NCBI RefSeq assembly: GCF_047663525.1
Contig: NC_092607.1
Coordinates: 5,923,001 to 5,987,000 of the forward strand
Length of the DNA: 64,000 nucleotides
From: Anas platyrhynchos
Lineage: Eukaryota; Chordata; Aves; Anseriformes; Anatidae
Direction: 5' to 3'
Below, one piece after another: positions 3,160 to 64,000 of this stretch. A program made the position numbers and the translations under genes. The notes under the pieces were generated by a model. That model had not been told where the DNA came from. It made no database searches and saw nothing but the letters and a program-made list of their open reading frames with translations. How positions within the stretch are numbered: the first letter of the stretch is position 1; every line of letters starts with the position of its first letter.

Positions 3160-3231
3160 TTCCCACACCGGGAGTCGAACCCGGGCTGCCTGGGTGAAAA
3201 CCAGGAATCCTAACCGCTAGACCATGTGGGA
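3160..3231 (-). tRNA. tRNA-Glu (anticodon TTC)
   Basis: The minus strand reads as a complete 72-nt tRNA. The acceptor arms TCCCACA (3231-3225) and TGTGGGA (3167-3161) pair perfectly, followed by an A discriminator at 3160. The D arm contains TAGCGGTTAGG. The anticodon loop holds TTC at 3198-3196. The T arm CCGGG/TTCGACT/CCCGG matches the Pol III B box GGTTCGACTCC exactly, and the A box (TGGTCTAGCGG) is also present. No intron and no encoded CCA, as expected for a nuclear gene. It closely resembles the standard vertebrate tRNA-Glu(TTC) I remember and shows no mispair in the stems, so it is probably functional. It stands alone, with no second tRNA recognised in the window. Confidence 0.97.
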
Positions 3232-35721: not shown

Positions 35722-36002
35722 ATCACAATCCCAGAATGGGAAGGGACCTCTGAAGATCACCCAGTCCTGCCAAGCAGCATCATAGAGCGCGTTGCACAGG
35801 AAGGCATCCAGGCGGGGTGTATCTCCAGAGAAGGAGACCCCACAACCTCTCTGGGCAGCCTGTCCCAGCGCTCTGCCACCCTCCCAGCACAGAAGTGCCC
35901 CCCCATATTGAGCCAGAACGTCCTGTCTCTTGACCGGCTCCATCCCCCCGACCTCCTCCCCTCGTGTATCTCCGCACATCCATAAACTCTCCCCTCAGCC
36001 CA
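35722..36002 (-). mobile_element. CR1 LINE 3' tail abutting the EDEM2 promoter
   Basis: The + strand begins with 'aatcccagaatgggaaggg', the antisense CR1 terminus. It continues through 'cacccagtcctgcc', 'ctctctgggcagcctgtccc', 'atattgagccagaacgtcc' and a 'catccataaactctcccctc' segment, all matching antisense CR1 landmarks in order. The element is on the minus strand. Its truncated inner end merges with the GC-rich DNA about 120 bp before the EDEM2 start codon, so EDEM2 transcription may begin at or close to CR1-derived sequence. Confidence 0.85.
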
Positions 36003-36235: not shown

Positions 36236-39200
36236 GTGAGTGTGGGGTGAGGGTAGGGGTAGGGGTATTGGGGTGTGAGCAGGGTGAGCCGTGCCCTATC
36301 GCTCCGAGCCGCTCCGTGCTGTGCCGTGCTGCAGGGAGCGGGTGCGTGCCATGTTCTACCATGCCTACGAGCACTACCTGGAGAGCGCCTTCCCCTACGA
36401 CGAGCTGCGGCCGCTGACCTGCGACGGGCAGGACACCTGGGGCAGGTAGGGGCAGCCGGGCTGGGCTGGGCTGGGGCTGCCGCAGGGCCTCGCCTCACTC
36501 AGCCCTCTTCCCGCACAGCTTCTCCCTCACGCTGATCGATGCCCTGGACACGCTGCTGGTGAGTAGGAGCCGGCCCCGGCGGGCAGGAGCTCGCTGCCCC
36601 GACACCTCCTTGCTCTGGTGCGAGGGCCTGTGGCGCTTCAGGATGGGGTGAAGCTGCTCGTCTGGTGTCACCTGAAGACAACTCTTGCACAAAACCCTGA
36701 AACAAATCTAATGTTGGCCCCTAGTGTTAAATTCCACCGTTGTTTTCCGTGCTTTGGGCGCTGAGCCTTGTTCTCTTGTGGCCCCGCTGCAGATTCTGGG
36801 AAACGTTTCGGAGTTCCAGAGAGTCGTCACCGTGCTGCAGGAAGGGGTGGATTTTGACATCGATGTCAATGCGTCCGTCTTCGAAACCAACATTCGAGGT
36901 GAGGCATGGTTGTGCGTTGTGGTTGTGCTGCTTTACCTGTCTGTGCAACTCTCGGGATTGTAGGCAGGGGTAACGCAAGGCAGCGGTCAGAGGGAGATTG
37001 TAGTGCAGTGTAATACGGCATGGAAATGCACAGAAAAAAACTAAACAAGTGTCACTTCCTTTTTGTCTTTGTCCTGCACCTTTCTGCTTCCTGCCCCAAT
37101 ATAAACGGATGCAGATGTGGCGCTTTCAGTATTCTGGTGCCACGTTTTTAGCCTTTGAACAGATGTATTTTTCTGCTGAGATGGTACAAAACTAATGCTC
37201 TGTTTTCTTTACATGCTGTTTTGAATCAGAGATTATTAATTTATTTCTTAGGCTCTGTAAAATAAAAGTTGTCTTCTTATTTTCTCAAAAACCACAAAGA
37301 CCTTTACCTGCAGCGGGGAGGAATCTTGTACCCTAATCTTGTACCCTATTGAGCACCTCACTGCCTTGGCACCGTGCAACGCCAAAACACAAGCAGTGAA
37401 CACAACTGTCAGTTACGCTTTTTTGTTTCTCCTTTCAGCCACTGCTGAAACTGTTTTTGCAGCACTGTAATTTCTCTCTTCCTGCTTGTTATGCAACAGC
37501 AAACAAGGCTGTGCAAAGAATTAAAACTCCTTGCCTCTGTCAGTCACACTAAAATTCTTGACTCTGACCTAGGCGTTTTCCCGTCAGGAATTAGGAAGGA
37601 ATGCTGTATTACATTACAGAAGCATGGCATTAAGCTGTCTGGAAGAAATGAAACGCAGTTTCTCTCTTAGAGGTTCATGGTCAGTATATTTATAGCTTGT
37701 TTTGATTGTCTGCAGAACAGTGCAGGTGTATGAGGGCAGATAGGGTCTGAAGTGCATACTCTAATGGCAGTAATATACCTGCAAACAGGCAGGAAGAAAC
37801 AAATGACTCTTCTTCTGAGGCATATTGAATTATGCCATTAAAGATAAGCCATCTCACTTTTCTTCTCCATGAACGTTGTCCTTGCATCACAATAAAATAA
37901 ATCTGGTTTTGGATTTTGTTCCCCTCCCAAAATGTTCTTTAATGGGCTTCTTGCTTGCCTTCCAGTGGTGGGTGGTCTCCTCTCTGCTCATCTGCTGTCA
38001 AAGAAGGCTGGCATTGAAGTGGAAGTGGGATGGCCGTGCTCTGGACCTCTCCTGCGGATGGCAGAGGAAGCAGCTCGCAAACTCCTGCCAGGTGAGAACT
38101 TGTCTGCTTTGTGCTGCTGTGTTGTAGCTCCTGAGGTAACTGGTGCATCTGAGGAAGATGGCACTGCCTGATGTGTACGTGCACACAACAGTCCTGTGTT
38201 CCCTGAGATCAAAGAAAATTCAGCATGTGGGAAAGCATCGTGGAAGCACGTAACACCACTTGTCTGCATGCGTGCCAAGTGTTGTTTGTGCTTAACACAT
38301 CAATTTGCTAATTGCTCATTGGGGGGAAATATATTTTATATACATGATAAATAAAGGCTTTGAAACAACCGCTTGTAAAGACAAGACTGCCCCTCTGTGG
38401 GCTGCTGCTAGGATGTTTGCTCTGATAGCATGACACCGTTTCCATGTCTGTTGTGAGCCCTGGGCTACCCCTGAGTAATCGTGAGCTCAGTGTTTTTATG
38501 CTGTTGACCAGCCTGTGCAGTTGTCTGTTTAATTTGACTACTCTGCTTGTGCTGGAAACAAAGTAAGGCTGCAGTCCCCTGCACTGAACAGGGGGGAAGA
38601 GATGGAAGATATCAGTGACTTCCCAGGATTGCGTGTGTAGTTTGAGATACCCCCTCCTCTGGCCCCTGCAGGATCACGCTGGACTTCTCATTTGCAGTTG
38701 CTGCAATTGCTCCATATGTTGCCACTGTAGGTGCGGGGAATGCGAGGCACAGGTACCTGGCAGCTTGTCAGATCTAACAGTGGATGCTCTCGTGTGAACC
38801 GAAAACTTTGTTTCAGCTTTTCAGACTCCCACTGGGATGCCATACGGAACAGTGAACTTGCTGCATGGAGTAAACCCTGGGGAGACCCCAGTTACCTGCA
38901 CTGCTGGGATCGGTACGTTTATAGTGGAATTTGCCACTTTAAGCCACCTTACTGGTGACCCGGTGTTTGAGGATGTTGCCAGGAAGGCTCTGAAGGCACT
39001 GTGGAAAAATCGCTCTGACATTGGACTGGTGAGTGAGGAAACAGACTCTGAACTTACAGGCTACTTTTTGTAAAGTCTTGAGGGATGCAGTTTCAAGTGT
39101 AAAAAGTACAAAGAGAGGAGATAGCACCGTGTTTGTTTATCTAGTTCTGATAGCTGGGCTGTACATTGTGTGTTTGACATTGTTCCTGAGCACCTGCAGC

Positions 39201-42200: not shown

Positions 42201-44103
42201 AATCTTAAAGAAAACACAGTGTACGTGTCACCTACATAGAGTATTTCCTTAGTGCTTGTTTTCTTGGTGTTTTAGATACCCCTGTTTGAGAAGCTTATAG
42301 CACTGCTTAAAGATTATATTTGGGAGCTTGAGTTTTATATTTGTTATCCTTTCTAGAAGTATCCTTGTTTGCTAATTTTAACAACTGAATTCCCTCAGTT
42401 GCTCAGAGTTTCTCTGTTGCTCCTCTTGCCCTTCTTGAATGTGGAGGGATTGAGCATTATTCAGTCTTGCCTGAGTTGATGAAACATTGTTAGAGTGATT
42501 TTCTTTGTAACACATCCTCAGTAAAAGTCTGTTTGTGTTCTTTGAACCAGAGGAAACGCAAGGCAAACCAGATTACTTACCTGCTTTTATTAAAATAGTA
42601 TTGTTAAATGAATTCAAGGAGCATCTTTTCTTCACCATATATGTGGTTGATAATATATATGCTTGCAACTATCTTCTGTTTTTTGTGTTTTTCAGAGCTA
42701 ATTGAGAGTGCAATGTATCTGTACCGTGCTACACGAGATCCCACGCTCTTAGAACTGGGAAGAGATGCAGTGGAGTCAATAGAGAAAATCAGCAAGGTGG
42801 ACTGTGGGTTTGCAACTGTAAGTGTGGCTGCTAAGTATCAGCTTTTAGGTAGAAAGGCTTCTCATGAGTGATGGTTGATGGTTTTGCCATTAAGTTAAAT
42901 GATCACATGATCACTTCAGCTACAGTGTGGCTTTTTTTTTTTTTTTTTTCAAAGAAATCTTGCTTTCCTCTGAAGCTGATCTGGTAATTACTGGTCATGT
43001 TTCTGGGAGTAACTTCTCCTACAGCCTGAAAAGTGGGCCAGAATCTACACTTGACTGTCACACCAGAGCCCTAAAACATGAGAAAGCATCAGAATCTTCT
43101 CTACTCTCATTTATCTTGGTAGATATGAGGTGTCCCAGATTAGCAGGAAGGCTCATGTGCCCTGTAGAAATGCAGAGATTCTCTGCCTGTCAGTTGTGTA
43201 ATTCTGCTTTCCCATTATACTTTGAAAATCTGATCAAGCGCAAGAGATCTGCAGTAAGGGATTTCTTTAAAATCTGTTAATAGAAAATTTCAAAGATGCT
43301 ATCAAGCTCTCTTTTAAAAAAAAAAAAAAAAAAAAAAAACTTATAAATATTGGGAAGGCCTTGTGATTTGGGAAGTAGGTAAAGCCTTCTTCTGACTTAG
43401 TCTAGTGATTCGGTACTGAAAAGTATGCTAATTCAAAACATAGGAAAACTTGAAAACTTGATGTACTTGCATACAATCACTTAAAATATGGAGTGAATTG
43501 ATATTGTACTCTGTTGTTTGACTTGAGTAAATTGCAAGCTGATTTTACTCTTTCCCCAAAGTTCATAATTCCTTGAATTTGATATAACTGTAACCCACTG
43601 GTTGTCTTTTCCTGTAGATCAAAGACTTGAGAGATCACAGACTGGATAATCGTATGGAATCCTTCTTTTTGGCTGAAACGGTGAAATATTTGTATCTACT
43701 GTTTGACCCAGACAACTTCATTCACAACGATGGCTCGGACTTTGATGTGGTGATCACACCATATGGGGAATGTGTCTTGAATGCTGGAGGGTACATCTTC
43801 AACACCGAAGCTCATCCCATTGACCCTGCTGCACTGCATTGCTGTAGGAAGCGGAAAGAGGAGCAGTGGGAGGTGGAAGACTTGATGCGGGAATTTTACT
43901 CACTTAAGAAAAACAAGAAATTTACTTTAAAACAAGCGTCTGAACGTGATGAAGGAGAAAGTACAAAAGATGCCACAGATGCCTCTTCAGGTGGAGAGAA
44001 AAGAAACTCTAAGAAGAGCTCACACTCCCTCTTGAGTTGCCCCAGTCAGTCTTTTAACTCTAAGCTTGCAGTACTGGGACAGGTGTTCCTAGACAACACC
44101 TGA
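36123..44103 (+). CDS. EDEM2: EDEM2, ER degradation-enhancing alpha-mannosidase-like 2
   Basis: Eleven coding exons (36123-36235, 36335-36445, 36519-36558, 36793-36898, 37966-38091, 38817-39028, 40198-40339, 40561-40685, 41389-41533, 42696-42817, 43618-44103) join in frame to 1728 nt, 575 residues plus TGA; human EDEM2 is about the same length (578). All introns are GT-AG. Residues 1-28 form a signal peptide, and about 35-485 the glycoside hydrolase family 47 domain. GH47 active-site motifs are intact: Glu119 in VFETNIR, Asp260 in [10 protein letters not shown], Glu374 in RPELIES, and Thr477 in NTEAHP (calcium site). In other vertebrates EDEM2 starts trimming of Man9 to Man8B on misfolded glycoproteins in the ER lumen, bound by a disulfide to TXNDC11. 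Cys67, Cys410 and Cys555 match the positions I recall as human Cys65, Cys408 and Cys558. Sequons lie at Asn92, Asn114, Asn230 and Asn291. No KDEL-type tail. The start has a purine at -3 and no upstream in-frame ATG within the CpG island. Confidence 0.97.
36244..36273 (+). repeat. G-quadruplex motif in EDEM2 intron 1
   Basis: Five G-runs (GGGG, GGG, GGGG, GGGG, GGGG) separated by TGA, TA, TA and TATT begin 9 bases into the 99-bp intron 1, on the sense strand. They resemble interspersed telomere-like GGGGTA units. Confidence 0.85.
36335..36445 (+). CDS. EDEM2: EDEM2 exon 2
   Basis: Codons 38 (split) to 75 (split). Starts the GH47 domain with [15 protein letters not shown] and [18 protein letters not shown]. 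Contains Cys67, the likely equivalent of human Cys65. Introns 1 and 2 are only 99 and 73 bp. Confidence 0.93.
36519..36558 (+). CDS. EDEM2: EDEM2 exon 3 (40 nt)
   Basis: A very short exon encoding [13 protein letters not shown] (codons 76-88 plus the end of split codon 75), the conserved GH47 'LIDALDTL' segment. Flanked by CACAG| and |GTGAGT. Its small size makes it easy for gene finders to miss. Confidence 0.92.
36793..36898 (+). CDS. EDEM2: EDEM2 exon 4, catalytic glutamate
   Basis: Encodes residues 89-123 plus one base. Contains sequons NVS (Asn92) and NAS (Asn114) and the GH47 motif VFETNIR with Glu119, the equivalent of the catalytic acid Glu117 reported for human EDEM2. Confidence 0.94.
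36899..37965 (+). other. EDEM2 intron 4
   Basis: 1067 bp, GTGAGG...TTCCAG. Mixed composition with no embedded gene. A small imperfect duplication (ATCTTGTACCCT twice) lies at about 37323-37348. Nothing else notable. Confidence 0.8.
37966..38091 (+). CDS. EDEM2: EDEM2 exon 5
   Basis: Residues 124 (split) to 165 plus one base: [16 protein letters not shown] through [16 protein letters not shown], the conserved helical hairpin of the GH47 barrel. Donor CCAG|GTGAGA. Confidence 0.94.
38092..38816 (+). other. EDEM2 intron 5
   Basis: 725 bp, GTGAGA...TTTCAG. No embedded feature recognised. Confidence 0.8.
38817..39028 (+). CDS. EDEM2: EDEM2 exon 6
   Basis: Residues 166-236. Includes [13 protein letters not shown] and the [15 protein letters not shown] motif typical of GH47. 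Contains sequon NRS at Asn230, which I do not recall among the human EDEM2 glycosylation sites. Ends in phase 0 at GLV. Confidence 0.94.
39029..40197 (+). other. EDEM2 intron 6
   Basis: 1169 bp, GTGAGT...CTCCAG. T-rich runs near 39615-39695 and no embedded gene recognised. Confidence 0.8.
40198..40339 (+). CDS. EDEM2: EDEM2 exon 7, catalytic aspartate
   Basis: Residues 237-283 plus one base. Carries [14 protein letters not shown], in which Asp260 aligns with the GH47 catalytic base (Asp463 of human ER mannosidase I). Confidence 0.94.
40340..40560 (+). other. EDEM2 intron 7
   Basis: 221 bp, GTGAGC...TAATAG, with a T-rich polypyrimidine tract before the acceptor. Nothing else seen. Confidence 0.8.
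40561..40685 (+). CDS. EDEM2: EDEM2 exon 8
   Basis: Residues 284 (split) to 325: [19 protein letters not shown] then the [10 protein letters not shown] motif shared by EDEM proteins. Sequon NYT at Asn291. Confidence 0.94.
40686..41388 (+). other. EDEM2 intron 8
   Basis: 703 bp, GTAAGA...TTCCAG. Contains an A-run at about 40860-40873 and a T10 run near 40900. No gene seen. Confidence 0.8.
41389..41533 (+). CDS. EDEM2: EDEM2 exon 9
   Basis: Residues 326-373 plus one base. Includes the FGGLPEFYN segment and the start of the PLRPE motif. Donor CCAG|GTAAGG. Confidence 0.94.
41534..42695 (+). other. EDEM2 intron 9
   Basis: 1162 bp, GTAAGG...TTTCAG. AT-rich, with no embedded gene or transposon recognised. 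Confidence 0.8.
42696..42817 (+). CDS. EDEM2: EDEM2 exon 10, RPE glutamate and Cys410
   Basis: Residues 374 (split) to 414: [16 protein letters not shown] completes the GH47 motif RPE..ES with Glu374. Cys410 in VDCGF is the likely equivalent of human Cys408. Confidence 0.94.
42818..43617 (+). other. EDEM2 intron 10
   Basis: 800 bp, GTAAGT...CTGTAG. Contains a T18 run (42932-42949) and an A24 run (43316-43339), both simple repeats. No gene recognised. The open frame at 42927-43280 has no known motif. Confidence 0.8.
43618..44103 (+). CDS. EDEM2: EDEM2 exon 11, calcium motif and C-terminal tail
   Basis: Residues 415-575 and the TGA stop. Begins [20 protein letters not shown] and ends the GH47 domain with [10 protein letters not shown] (Thr477). 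A Lys/Ser/Glu-rich tail of about 85 residues follows. It is likely disordered and contains Cys555, 20 residues from the end, like human Cys558. Where I recall a human Asn450 sequon, this protein has Asp452. Confidence 0.94.
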
Positions 44104-48176: not shown

Positions 48177-48530
48177 TTCAAAGAGTGATAGAATGGGACC
48201 TCAAAGATCGTCTAGTCCCAACCTGTGCCATAGGCAGGGATGCCACCCACTAGATCTGGTTTGCCAGGGCCCCATCCAGCCTGGTCCTGAACACCCCCAG
48301 GGATGGGGCACCCACAGCCTCTCTGGGCAGCCTGTGCCAGGGCCTCACCGCCCTCAGAGTGAAGAACTTCTTCCTAACGTCCAATCTAAATCTCCCCTCT
48401 TTCAGTTTAAAACCGCTCCCCCTTGTCCTATTGTTATCTACACAAGTAGAGTCCCTCTCCATCCCTTTTTCTTGCACCTGCTTAGCCGTATGTGAGAACC
48501 CAACTTTTCCCCTTTTCTTCCAGGGGCAGA
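48177..48530 (-). mobile_element. CR1 LINE 3' tail, 5'-truncated
   Basis: The + strand starts with antisense CR1 end sequence ('gatagaatgggacctcaaag', then 'gtctagtcccaacctg'). It proceeds through 'gccccatccagcctggtcc', 'ctctctgggcagcctgtgcc', 'gaagaacttcttcctaacgt' and 'ccccttgtcctattgttatc', so the element is on the minus strand. It is longer and less diverged than the copy at 1558. The inner boundary, somewhere between 48490 and 48535, is approximate. Confidence 0.87.
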
Positions 48531-48880
48531 GCAGCTTTGCCATGAACCTTACGGTCTGGGCTCTTTGAGGTGCTAGATTGTGCTTGAGTCAAGAAGCTCC
48601 TTGGGTGCTGCACTATGGACTTCAGTCCCGTGTCTGAATTGTTCCCCTCAGCTAATAGCAGGGAAGCATGTGGGTAATTTAATGGAAATAAACATGTTAT
48701 TGCAACGTGGCCGGGCTGTTCCTGATATTACTTTATTCACAGGGACTGTTCACTATGTGCTTATGCCGTAAGGATATTAGACTGTCAGAAAGAAACGTAT
48801 CAAAACGGGACGTGTGTAAGTTGTGGCCAGCTCTGTAGGATGGCAGTGACAGCTTCACAGGGTGTGGAGCTGCTGTGGTG
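48531..48880. other. Intergenic DNA, no gene recognised
   Basis: 350 bp with no recognisable feature between the CR1 tail and the hairpin. AAATAAA near 48686 has no gene to serve. Confidence 0.6.
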
Positions 48881-48974
48881 ACAAAGGTGGCATCCCTCAC
48901 CCTGACCCCTCTGGGTGCTGTGCTGAATGAGGCACAGCACCCAGAGCGGTCAGGATGGGGAATCCCACCTTTGT
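48881..48974. repeat. 94-nt imperfect inverted repeat (hairpin)
   Basis: Left arm 48881-48923 (begins ACAAAGGTGG, ends CTCTGGGTGCTGTGC) and right arm 48932-48974 are reverse complements at 38 of 43 positions, separated by an 8-nt loop (TGAATGAG). In RNA one mismatch becomes a G-U pair. The size and the small symmetric mismatches fit a pre-miRNA-like or foldback element. It lies 250 bp upstream of the TRPC4AP start codon. It is not a microRNA I recognise. Confidence 0.9.
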
Positions 48975-49082
48975 AGGGCTGACAACCAGCCCCTACATCA
49001 CGACCCAGGGCAGATTTGTGCTTCCTGGGCGTTATTTACACCCAGCCCCCCCCGCTCGCTGTGGCTCCCTCACAGCCCCGGG

Positions 49083-49101
49083 ACTACATTTCCCAGCATC
49101 C
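49083..49101 (+). promoter_or_regulatory. ZNF143/Staf (THAP11) binding motif
   Basis: ACTACATTTCCCAGCATCC closely matches the long ZNF143 consensus ACTACAAYTCCCAGMATGC (two or three differing positions). It lies about 140 bp upstream of the TRPC4AP ATG, a typical position for this factor near transcription starts. Confidence 0.75.
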
Positions 49102-49223
49102 CCCGCGGCGCCGCCATTCCCCTCGGGCAGCCCGCGCGGGGGCGCCGCGGAGCGCGGCTGGGCGGGGGGGGCGGGGAGGGGAGGGGGCGCTTCCTGTTTG
49201 TCTCGGCCGAGCGGGGCAGCGCC

Positions 49224-49400
49224 ATGGCGGCGGCGGCGGCAGTGGGGGGCGGCCCGGGGCCCGGTGGCGGCGGCGGGGCAGGAGGAGGAGGAGTAGGAGG
49301 AGGAGGAGGAAGGAGCCGGCGAGCAGCGCCCACCACCAACATCCTGGCGCAGCTCCGCCGCGGGCAGCTCAGCGGCCGCGGCCTCACGAGGGGGGCGCAG
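49224..49400 (+). CDS. TRPC4AP: TRPC4AP exon 1 (coding part)
   Basis: Residues 1-59, phase 0 donor CAG|GTACCG. GCG and GGN triplet repeats encode a poly-Ala start (MAAAAA) and two glycine-rich runs. The last 22 residues (NILAQLRRGQLSGRGL onwards) are the conserved part. Confidence 0.92.
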
Positions 49401-61400: not shown

Positions 61401-64000
61401 AGAAGAAACAAAAAAGTAAGTAAATAGGTCTGCTCATTTTTTTTCCATTTTTGCCTTGTACCCTTCTTGAAGCAGGAGTTATTCTATTTTTCTGTTGCTC
61501 TTTTCCTTCTATACCAAGGATTTCGTGTTCCAAAATGAATCATTGGTTTCTTTGTTCTCTGTAGTACTGATTTATGTTGAGAATTAGGATAGTAACCTGC
61601 TGCAAAATCAGGAGTATTCATGCTGTCAGCAGAACATTTCTCAACACAGCAAATCTGTAGTCACTTGAAACTTCACCTTACTGTGGCTATAGCTACTGTT
61701 AACAATTACTAACAACAGTCCACAAAGCATTGTTTATGTAATAGGAGTTACAGAGATCGTGAGATATGAAAAGTATGCTGTTTTCCTGACCAAGTCACAA
61801 TGACTACTAATTTCCAAATTGTTGTAAAGAGAACTTGCTAATGGGGAGCAGTAGCTTCAGGTCAGCTTTCCTGCTGGAGCAGCTTCAGTTTAGTGTTTCC
61901 ATTTCTCTTGTCTGTGATTCTTCTGACTCCCTACAACTCTCCCGAGGAAAGGAAATGTCATGGTATGCGCCGTGGTCCCTGCCCACCAGCCAGGGAGCTT
62001 CAAAGGTGAAGTAACTTGAAGTTGAGCTAGAGGCAGCTGTTCTGTGCCCATATGTTTTTTAAATATTAAAATGCTGGAATAAATCAGATTGAAAGCTTTT
62101 CTACCAATTCCTGATGCTGCCTGGAGAAAAACACATGAACTAAAGACTGACTTCTTTTCACGTTTAATAATTGGAACTAATTTGTTTATAGCATTTTTTC
62201 CATATTGACAAATTTTGAGTTGATCTATGACTTCTTTCCTTCTCTAAAATACTGTTTACAAACCCTGTAATTTTGCATGTGTGACTAAGTGTGCTAGCCC
62301 TCAGGTACATCTCCATCTGCAGTCCTAGGCGGTAGTTTTGGAAGAAGGTAAGCAAACAGAGCAGATACAGAGTGATTTTATTGTGTTTTTTATCTGCAAG
62401 ACATTTGCAGGTATGATCCAAGTCAGTAGTTAGCCTGAAATTCTCACTCAGTTTACAGCTATTAATTTCGCTACTGTGGACATCACTGATCAACGTTACT
62501 TGTTAAGATGAGGCTAGTGAATGTCTGTTTTCTCCTTTGCAGTAAGCGATGACCTCATCAAGGACTGTTTAAGCATACTGTACAACACGTGCATATGTGT
62601 AAGTGCAACTGCTATGAAAATGTGTTCTGGCTTGACCAGTGCATCTGCTGGGTATGGGCTTCATGTGACGGGATTGTTTTATACTTGACGACAGACTCTT
62701 AAACATAACTTAAAATGACTCTGAAACTTTTCGTTAGAATTCCTTTAGTTAAATGTGGGACCACCCTACATTTTGGATTGTTGTTCAAATAATTTGTGTT
62801 TTCTTAGGCACATTGTTACGCTTAATCTCTCTTGGTTGGATCTTTGTGTATCTGTGTTCCCATAGGAAATTCATGTCAGCGTTTGTTGTGTTGAAGCTTA
62901 AAATTTGAAACTAAATGGATGCCTGCAGTCTAACCCAAGCTACAGCTCATCTTGTTCAGTAACAGTGCTGGCAAACTCTTTAAGTTTGATCCTGCAGATT
63001 CTTTGTATGTTGAATACCAGTGCAGTTGTGCATTGATGGCAGATCAGTGCCAGCTATTGAAATAGCTTCAGAATTGTAATGGAGAGCTAGAAGGGCATGC
63101 CTCTGATTATGCTTACAGGGAACATCCTCACCATTGTTTAGTTAATCACGCAGTTTATTAGGTCGTAACCTAGGGAGCATTGTTTAATGAAAAAAAAACA
63201 AGTTGATAGTCACTGGACTGGAGCTCTTCCAAAGACATCAACCTTATCTGGAGAGTTTGAGTACTAAGTATCTGTGTACAGATGGGAAGGAGAACAGAGG
63301 GAACACCACCGCCTGCTTGACTTAATAGGATTTTATTTTGTTCCTTAAACCAGAGGTAATGCAACTTTTGCAGACTGTGATTATTGTAATAGCAAAGGAA
63401 CAAGTTTGCATTTTTTTGGATTAGCTGCTGTTTGACTTGCTTCACTTCATTATTACCACTCATTTGAATGAGAAATGTTCAGGATCACAGAGGTCTTCTG
63501 TGTGCAACATAAACTGTTCTTATACTTATCTGTAAATATTTAGGAAGTATGTAAGCTAGTCTATTTCTGTGAGCAGTGGTGATAGGTCAGTCACAATAGC
63601 CAACTTTGCAAGCACTGAGGATGTAGTTTGTTACATTTAATTCCAGAAAAGAGTGTCCGTGGTGTCAGCAGAGATCAGAGCGTGAAAGCTAGCATTACTT
63701 AACTCTGTGATGAACCCAAAAGTCGTGCCTTAGTGTGCTGTAGCATGACTGATGTGTTCATCACTGAATTCATTAAGGCTGAAGCGTGATTCTGGTTGCT
63801 TGGACTCTGCCCAGCTGAGAGCAATGCTAACAGTTAAGGAGGAATCTGGGGACTGCATTTGCATATTATGAAATGGAGCTGATTATAATTTGTATGGGAA
63901 ACTAGAGATGAGCCTCTCTGACATGTTTCCAGGCATTCAGTGTTTACTCTTGATTTAAGCAAGTAAACGACTCTGCCTTGAGTGAAGGTTCTCATCTTGG
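49224..64000 (+). CDS. TRPC4AP: TRPC4AP (TRUSS), 5' part; gene continues past the window
   Basis: Five coding exons are present: 49224-49400, 58290-58418, 58684-58800, 61358-61415 and 62543-62598. They join in frame to 179 codons, and the remaining exons lie beyond 64000. Exons 2-5 encode the well-conserved N-terminal block of TRPC4AP (KERDKQAKWNGIP, EISPLLSMEAMAFVTE, FDLFGGVD, LVEILMRPT, KDCLSILYNTC). TRPC4AP is a cytosolic, armadillo-like helical scaffold first found with TNF receptor 1 and TRPC4. It also acts as a DDB1-CUL4 substrate receptor, reported for MYC family proteins and C-degrons. The start codon has a strong Kozak context (GCCATGG). The first 34 residues are an Ala/Gly/Arg-rich low-complexity stretch, longer in glycine than the mammalian proteins I remember; homology starts at about NILAQLRRGQLSGRGL. 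It lies about 5 kb downstream of EDEM2 on the same strand. Confidence 0.95.
49551..49566. repeat. C16 homopolymer
   Basis: Sixteen uninterrupted C residues (G16 on the minus strand) in the CpG island, prone to i-motif/G-quadruplex structure and to sequencing error. Confidence 0.9.
51319..51356. repeat. 17-bp direct duplication
   Basis: TCCATTTTGTGAGGAAA occurs at 51319-51335 and again, identical, at 51340-51356, separated by AAAA. Confidence 0.9.
55938..55968. repeat. T-rich simple repeat
   Basis: T-runs interrupted by single A residues (T8 A T8 A T14 pattern, approximate). Confidence 0.85.
58290..58418 (+). CDS. TRPC4AP: TRPC4AP exon 2
   Basis: Residues 60-102, phase 0 at both ends. ITEALLKERDKQAKWNGIP then LLLQKLYEH and CQSILK, the conserved helical start of the scaffold. 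Donor AAAG|GTATTG is slightly unusual but has the invariant GT. Confidence 0.94.
58419..58683 (+). other. TRPC4AP intron 2
   Basis: 265 bp, GTATTG...TACAG. A T-rich tract precedes the acceptor. Nothing else seen. Confidence 0.8.
58684..58800 (+). CDS. TRPC4AP: TRPC4AP exon 3
   Basis: Residues 103-141, phase 0. EISPLLSMEAMAFVTEDRK and TYTFDLFGGVD, among the best-conserved parts of the protein. Donor GAT|GTAAGT. Confidence 0.95.
58801..61357 (+). other. TRPC4AP intron 3
   Basis: 2557 bp, GTAAGT...TTTCAG. Contains an A17 run (59026-59042), T-rich GGTTGGTTG-type sequence near 59850-59890 and a (TTTTG)n repeat at 60404-60433. No nested gene recognised. Confidence 0.75.
61358..61415 (+). CDS. TRPC4AP: TRPC4AP exon 4 (58 nt)
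   Basis: Residues 142-160 plus one base: LLVEILMRPTLMTQKKKQK, then a split Ile codon completed by exon 5. The A-rich exon end (CAAAAAA|GTAAGT) leaves little choice of donor. Confidence 0.92.
61416..62542 (+). other. TRPC4AP intron 4
   Basis: 1127 bp, GTAAGT...TTGCAG. AT-rich, with no embedded feature recognised. Confidence 0.8.
62543..62598 (+). CDS. TRPC4AP: TRPC4AP exon 5 (56 nt)
   Basis: Completes codon 161 (Ile) and runs to codon 179: SDDLIKDCLSILYNTCIC, matching the conserved TRPC4AP block. Phase 0 donor TGT|GTAAGT. Too short to stand out as an open frame. Confidence 0.93.
62599..64000 (+). other. TRPC4AP intron 5 (continues past the window)
   Basis: 1402 bp visible, starting GTAAGT. 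I found no further TRPC4AP exon before the edge. No nested gene or transposon recognised. Confidence 0.75.

Follow-up and report, generated by a model that had tools for sequence, protein, structure and literature searches.

The hairpin at positions 48881-48974 of the duck (Anas platyrhynchos) DNA analysed here, hereafter the window (64,000 nucleotides in all), is best explained as a one-off inverted duplication that template switching during replication probably produced in the EDEM2–TRPC4AP spacer, and we would put the probability of this reading at somewhat under 0.6. The hairpin is real, lies at the coordinates given by the first-pass annotation, and is unusual, but of an ordinary kind. 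Its stem may provide the starting material from which a young microRNA could evolve.

Geometry, folding and genomic surroundings of the hairpin

The inverted repeat is made up of the following parts:

48881-48923, no strand assigned: left arm, 43 nt
48924-48931, no strand assigned: loop of 8 nt that separates the arms
48932-48974, no strand assigned: right arm, 43 nt, of which 38 positions are complementary to the left arm
48881-48974, minus strand: the whole hairpin in its more stable reading, with 40 of 43 arm pairs when G–U is counted (-79.9 kcal/mol vs. -72.5 kcal/mol on the plus strand)

Recomputation of the repeat returned the arms, the 8-nt loop and the pair counts of the first-pass annotation without change. 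The arms are 88% complementary, with 38 Watson–Crick pairs out of 43 and one further G–U pair on the plus strand (39 in total), and their alignment confirmed the uninterrupted runs of 10 outer and 15 inner pairs that had been described. The five mismatches are found at arm positions 11, 14, 17, 20 and 28. Beyond the arm ends, pairing drops sharply to 9 of 40 further positions, which is about the level of chance. The repeat is also rare for its surroundings. When scanned without gaps (match +1, mismatch -2, loop 3-60), it scored 28, compared with a maximum of 11 in the rest of the window and a maximum of 18 (mean 11.7) in 40 dinucleotide shuffles of the window. Furthermore, 18 inverted repeats were detected in the window under a distance limit of 300 nt, and this one tops the list.

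RNA folding of the 94 nt yielded z-scores of -11.3 for the plus strand (-72.5 kcal/mol) and -11.9 for the minus strand (-79.9 kcal/mol), with none of 200 shuffles as stable in either case, so that the minus strand is slightly better folded than the plus strand, a point on which the first-pass annotation is silent. The stem was still predicted on both strands when it was embedded in contexts of 250 and 500 nt, and its MFE index reached 1.43 on the minus strand and 1.29 on the plus strand. As DNA, the hairpin is a near-palindrome, and folding with DNA parameters gave -40.1 kcal/mol (plus strand) and -45.5 kcal/mol (minus strand).

A second, weaker hairpin was observed at 63691-63780, apparently in an intron of TRPC4AP, with 38-nt arms that are 76% complementary and stand 14 nt apart. 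Its folding z-scores are -3.2 on the plus strand and -4.0 on the minus strand, and the Rfam search returned two weak matches only, both to MIR4387 (best 22.5 bits vs. a curated score of 84). The plus strand of this second hairpin includes the letters GTGATGA and CTGA, which we take to be C-box-like and D-box-like motifs, respectively.

The annotated features of the window outside the two hairpins are as follows:

3160-3231, minus strand: tRNA gene (Rfam, 61.6 bits)
43618-44103, plus strand: open frame whose first part matches glycosyl hydrolase family 47 at its C-terminal end; part of the upstream gene, taken as EDEM2 from this family and the published gene order
49224-49400, plus strand: presumed first coding exon of TRPC4AP (no Pfam match)

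EDEM2 and the presumed TRPC4AP share one strand, and the hairpin is located in the spacer that separates them. The upstream gene is read as EDEM2 because three plus-strand frames (38798-39070, 42608-42868 and 43618-44103) match glycosyl hydrolase family 47 in Pfam, as EDEM2 would. The frame from 49224 is taken to be TRPC4AP by its protein sequence; Pfam gave no family for this presumed first exon, and among three frames further downstream two had no match and one had two weak matches below the cut-offs. The presumed name also rests on gene order, as EDEM2, TRPC4AP and MYH14 are reported in tandem in the chicken (PMC3716903). From the end of the hairpin to the presumed ATG at 49224 there are 249 nt, in agreement with the earlier estimate of about 250 bp.

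The hairpin lies just outside a CpG-rich promoter. The GC content is 0.59 and the CpG observed/expected ratio 0.24 at 48801-48950, changing to 0.61 and 0.39 at 48951-49100 and to 0.85 and 0.94 at 49101-49250. An AATAAA is present at 48687, some 190 nt ahead of the hairpin. The sequence ACTACATTTCCCAGCAT at 49083-49099, located after the hairpin and ahead of the presumed TRPC4AP start, resembles the ACTACAnnTCCC promoter element, which is presumably bound by ZNF143.

Probable origin by inverted duplication

The hairpin consists of a sequence and its adjacent reverse-complement copy with sharp ends, the arrangement expected from template switching. The equal length of the arms, their lack of gaps and their abrupt ends are as left by a single reverse-complement copying event. 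A recent inverted duplication had been listed in the first-pass annotation as an alternative to a pre-miRNA, and it fits at least as well. Stems of this type have been described at mammalian microRNA loci, with MIR633 as a worked example, where they are reverse-complement copies consistent with template switching and the mismatches follow a perfectly paired phase (PMC8794818). The duck hairpin is similar to MIR633-type hairpins in having one reverse-complement copy beside its source, and would likewise derive from an initially perfect stem that gained single mismatches; a difference from the duck hairpin is that the MIR633-type loci have a reconstructed ancestral state and a microRNA annotation (PMC8794818).

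According to the proposed mechanism, a 43-nt stretch would have been copied back, at a distance of 8 nt, as its own reverse complement; a single template switch during replication of the EDEM2–TRPC4AP spacer is the most plausible event. The arms would have diverged afterwards by five substitutions. Any RNA crossing the hairpin, such as an upstream antisense transcript from the CpG-rich TRPC4AP promoter or read-through from EDEM2, would then fold into a stable pre-miRNA-like stem. If transcribed, this stem would be a plausible substrate for Drosha/Dicer or ADAR, which might act on it by accident. On this reading, the hairpin would probably serve no selected function.

The differences between the arms comprise three C/T transitions and two C/G transversions. 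Both transversions break pairing on either strand. As RNA, the transitions appear as two G–U pairs and one C–A on the minus strand, and as one G–U pair and two C–A on the plus strand; about half of the transitions are expected to leave G–U when pairing is not under selection. These five changes give no clear sign of selection for pairing, although such a small number carries little weight and is too low to exclude it. The mismatches are mildly clustered, all of them within 18 of the 43 positions (p about 0.07), and this clustering, which spares the 15 innermost and 10 outermost pairs, leans weakly toward constraint. Under an inverted duplication, the GT and AG that border the hairpin, described below, also have no explanation other than chance.

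The avian neutral rate is 1.9e-9 per site per year. At this rate, five changes in 86 arm positions would correspond to an age of about 31 million years (Poisson range about 10-71), so the hairpin, if unselected, would be specific to a subset of birds.

The hairpin as a possible microRNA gene

A lineage-specific canonical microRNA gene (or a short-hairpin siRNA gene) is unlikely, but it would account for several properties of the stem. The transcript would more probably come from the minus strand than from the plus strand, judging by stability; Drosha would cut about 11-13 bp from the base, Dicer would remove the loop, and one arm would guide Argonaute. The hairpin resembles a canonical animal pre-miRNA or pri-miRNA stem in its size of about 94 nt and in its stable single stem of 43 bp with small, scattered mismatches and room for a 20-26-nt duplex, and the MFE indices and z-scores of both strands point in the same direction. 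The pre-miRNA look claimed in the first-pass annotation is thus borne out as far as size, stem length and stability are concerned, but a recent inverted duplication fits these properties equally well. The 43-bp stem also exceeds the usual length of a canonical pri-miRNA stem, which is roughly 35 bp.

Motifs used in microRNA processing can be found on both strands. If a cut is assumed 11 nt inside the base on the minus strand, a CNNC is situated 17 nt from it, but this is one of seven CNNC that begin in the first 20 nt; on the plus strand, a UG precedes the stem base. The CNNC and UG rules are easily satisfied by chance. Together with the nearby promoter, which could yield antisense transcripts, these motifs are suggestive but weak pointers to a microRNA.

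At gathering scores, Rfam 15 matched the whole window only at the tRNA at 3160-3231, and no family reached its curated score at the hairpin, consistent with the earlier remark that the arms were not recognised as a known microRNA. A permissive Rfam search of 651 bases gave 21 matches, 17 of them rows from 15 microRNA families and four from others. The best of these sub-threshold matches, mir-3179 (44.4 bits vs. a curated score of 90, E 2.4e-07), could speak for a microRNA; however, the matches are spread over 15 families, with mir-769 and mir-1286 on both strands. As mir-3179 has only 24 of 84 letters in common with the hairpin, the scores are read as reflecting the shape of the stem.

The literature has also been searched. 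Fragments of the arms had no relevant match in the main text of papers; lists of novel microRNAs are frequently placed in supplementary tables. One 14-mer of an arm occurs in an anti-tuberculosis plant-extract paper (PMC7523293) and was judged unrelated. Concerning chicken microRNAs, the sole chromosome 20 entry in the main text of PMC3107184 is placed at 10.9 Mb, as against 2.58-2.61 Mb for MYH14, the gene in tandem with TRPC4AP, in PMC3716903, which uses a different assembly. The non-coding RNAs of 48 bird genomes have been annotated with Rfam models and miRBase (PMC4378963). Drosha-independent microRNAs located at transcription start sites have been described as well (PMC8675727). With about 250 nt between it and the ATG, the hairpin does not fit this class well; it would do so only if its edge coincided with an unseen start site.

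Nothing found here demonstrates that the hairpin makes a microRNA. Some small-RNA function, either canonical or as a mirtron, would have a chance of roughly one in five. A young small-RNA gene, specific to a bird lineage and formed complete by a template switch next to the TRPC4AP promoter, is conceivable but distinctly improbable. Such a gene would be either a canonical microRNA carried by an antisense transcript of the promoter, or a mirtron in which the hairpin and the splice edges of the 99-nt intron (48878-48976, plus strand) were gained together.

Cis-acting, transposable and mirtron alternatives

We regard as quite doubtful that a cis-acting DNA or RNA structure, such as a cruciform, an insulator or an aid to transcription termination, has been selected between EDEM2 and TRPC4AP. 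The location between two same-strand genes and beside a CpG-rich promoter would suit this role, as would the strong fold obtained with DNA parameters, but the differences between the arms carry no clear sign of selection.

Very little probability is assigned to a small foldback or MITE-like transposable element, the other alternative raised in the first-pass annotation. The hairpin shares with these elements two inverted arms around a short spacer. However, its flanks, GTGGTG and AGGGCT, differ by eye, in accordance with the earlier remark that no target-site duplication is visible, and there is no second copy in the 64-kb window. BLAST of the hairpin and its arms against the window (E up to 1) gave only 11-14-nt matches elsewhere (E 0.007-0.41), and the 620-nt region around the hairpin had only four short weak matches (E 0.40). 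The nearest recognised repeat, at 48181-48470, is over 400 nt away.

This repeat, at about 48181-48470, is presumably a CR1-like retrotransposon fragment, and the window has partial matches to it at 1655-1786 and 35825-35871. Eight comparisons of the arms with the fragment were made. A 12-nt match of one arm was equalled by 1 of 500 shuffles and a 16-column match of the other arm by 8 of 500, the remaining six comparisons being unremarkable. Because both matches lie in different, non-collinear parts of the fragment, they do not indicate one continuous origin.

Searches were extended to microbial collections, which are uninformative on birds. Phage sequences showed short weak matches only, in 58 records, with a best E of 0.1 and no coverage of 80%, and the plasmid collection had no match at E 0.01. 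The inner-stem and arm patterns were without a match in viral contigs, as was the 12-bp inner-stem pattern in microbial genome contigs. A 22-letter degenerate arm pattern was found in two bacterial contigs and was taken as chance.

The least probable explanation is a mirtron on the plus strand, a possibility that the first-pass annotation had left out and that the edges of the hairpin weakly suggest:

48878-48976, plus strand: hypothetical mirtron-like unit of 99 nt, with a GT three bases before the hairpin and an AG directly after it; mediocre splice scores

The unit would be an intron of a 5'-extended TRPC4AP transcript or of an EDEM2 read-through transcript, and its spliced and debranched form would be the hairpin itself, bypassing Drosha. 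The GT at 48878-48879 and the AG at 48975-48976 would leave tails of 3 and 2 nt, and no AG occurs on the minus strand within 5 nt after the 3' base. With both strands counted, the window offers 127400 placements of a 94-nt unit. GT and AG stand at such edges in 13517 of them; the summed score is equalled or exceeded in 1591 (about 1 in 80, by a test devised once the edges had been noticed), and both scores individually in 540. By an approximate splice matrix, the donor score of -0.24 is near that of the presumed TRPC4AP exon-1 donor (-0.02). However, both sites are mediocre, as 462 of 3430 plus-strand GT and 1046 of 4856 plus-strand AG do at least as well, and the scoring was done after the GT and AG had been seen. 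In addition, the sole yUnAy branch-point-like motifs are 70 and 76 nt before the AG, which is unusually far, and no exon or transcript was seen upstream of the promoter. Canonical pre-miRNAs of the mouse are reported to measure no more than 82 nt, whereas those of conventional mirtrons are longer than in other classes and in some cases exceed 100 nt (PMC4556696). The plus-strand stem is similar to conventional mirtrons in its GT/AG flanks with short tails and in its length of about 99 nt, within the long range of the class, but differs from them in its mediocre splice scores, the lack of a close branch-point motif and the lack of a visible host intron (PMC4556696).

An inverted duplication by template switching is the reading that we prefer among those considered. 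Should orthologues reveal that the hairpin was born in one step, and should small RNAs arise from it, it would exemplify a microRNA or mirtron whose de novo birth next to a gene promoter can be dated. Otherwise, the hairpin would serve as a reminder that microRNA status needs more than hairpin shape.
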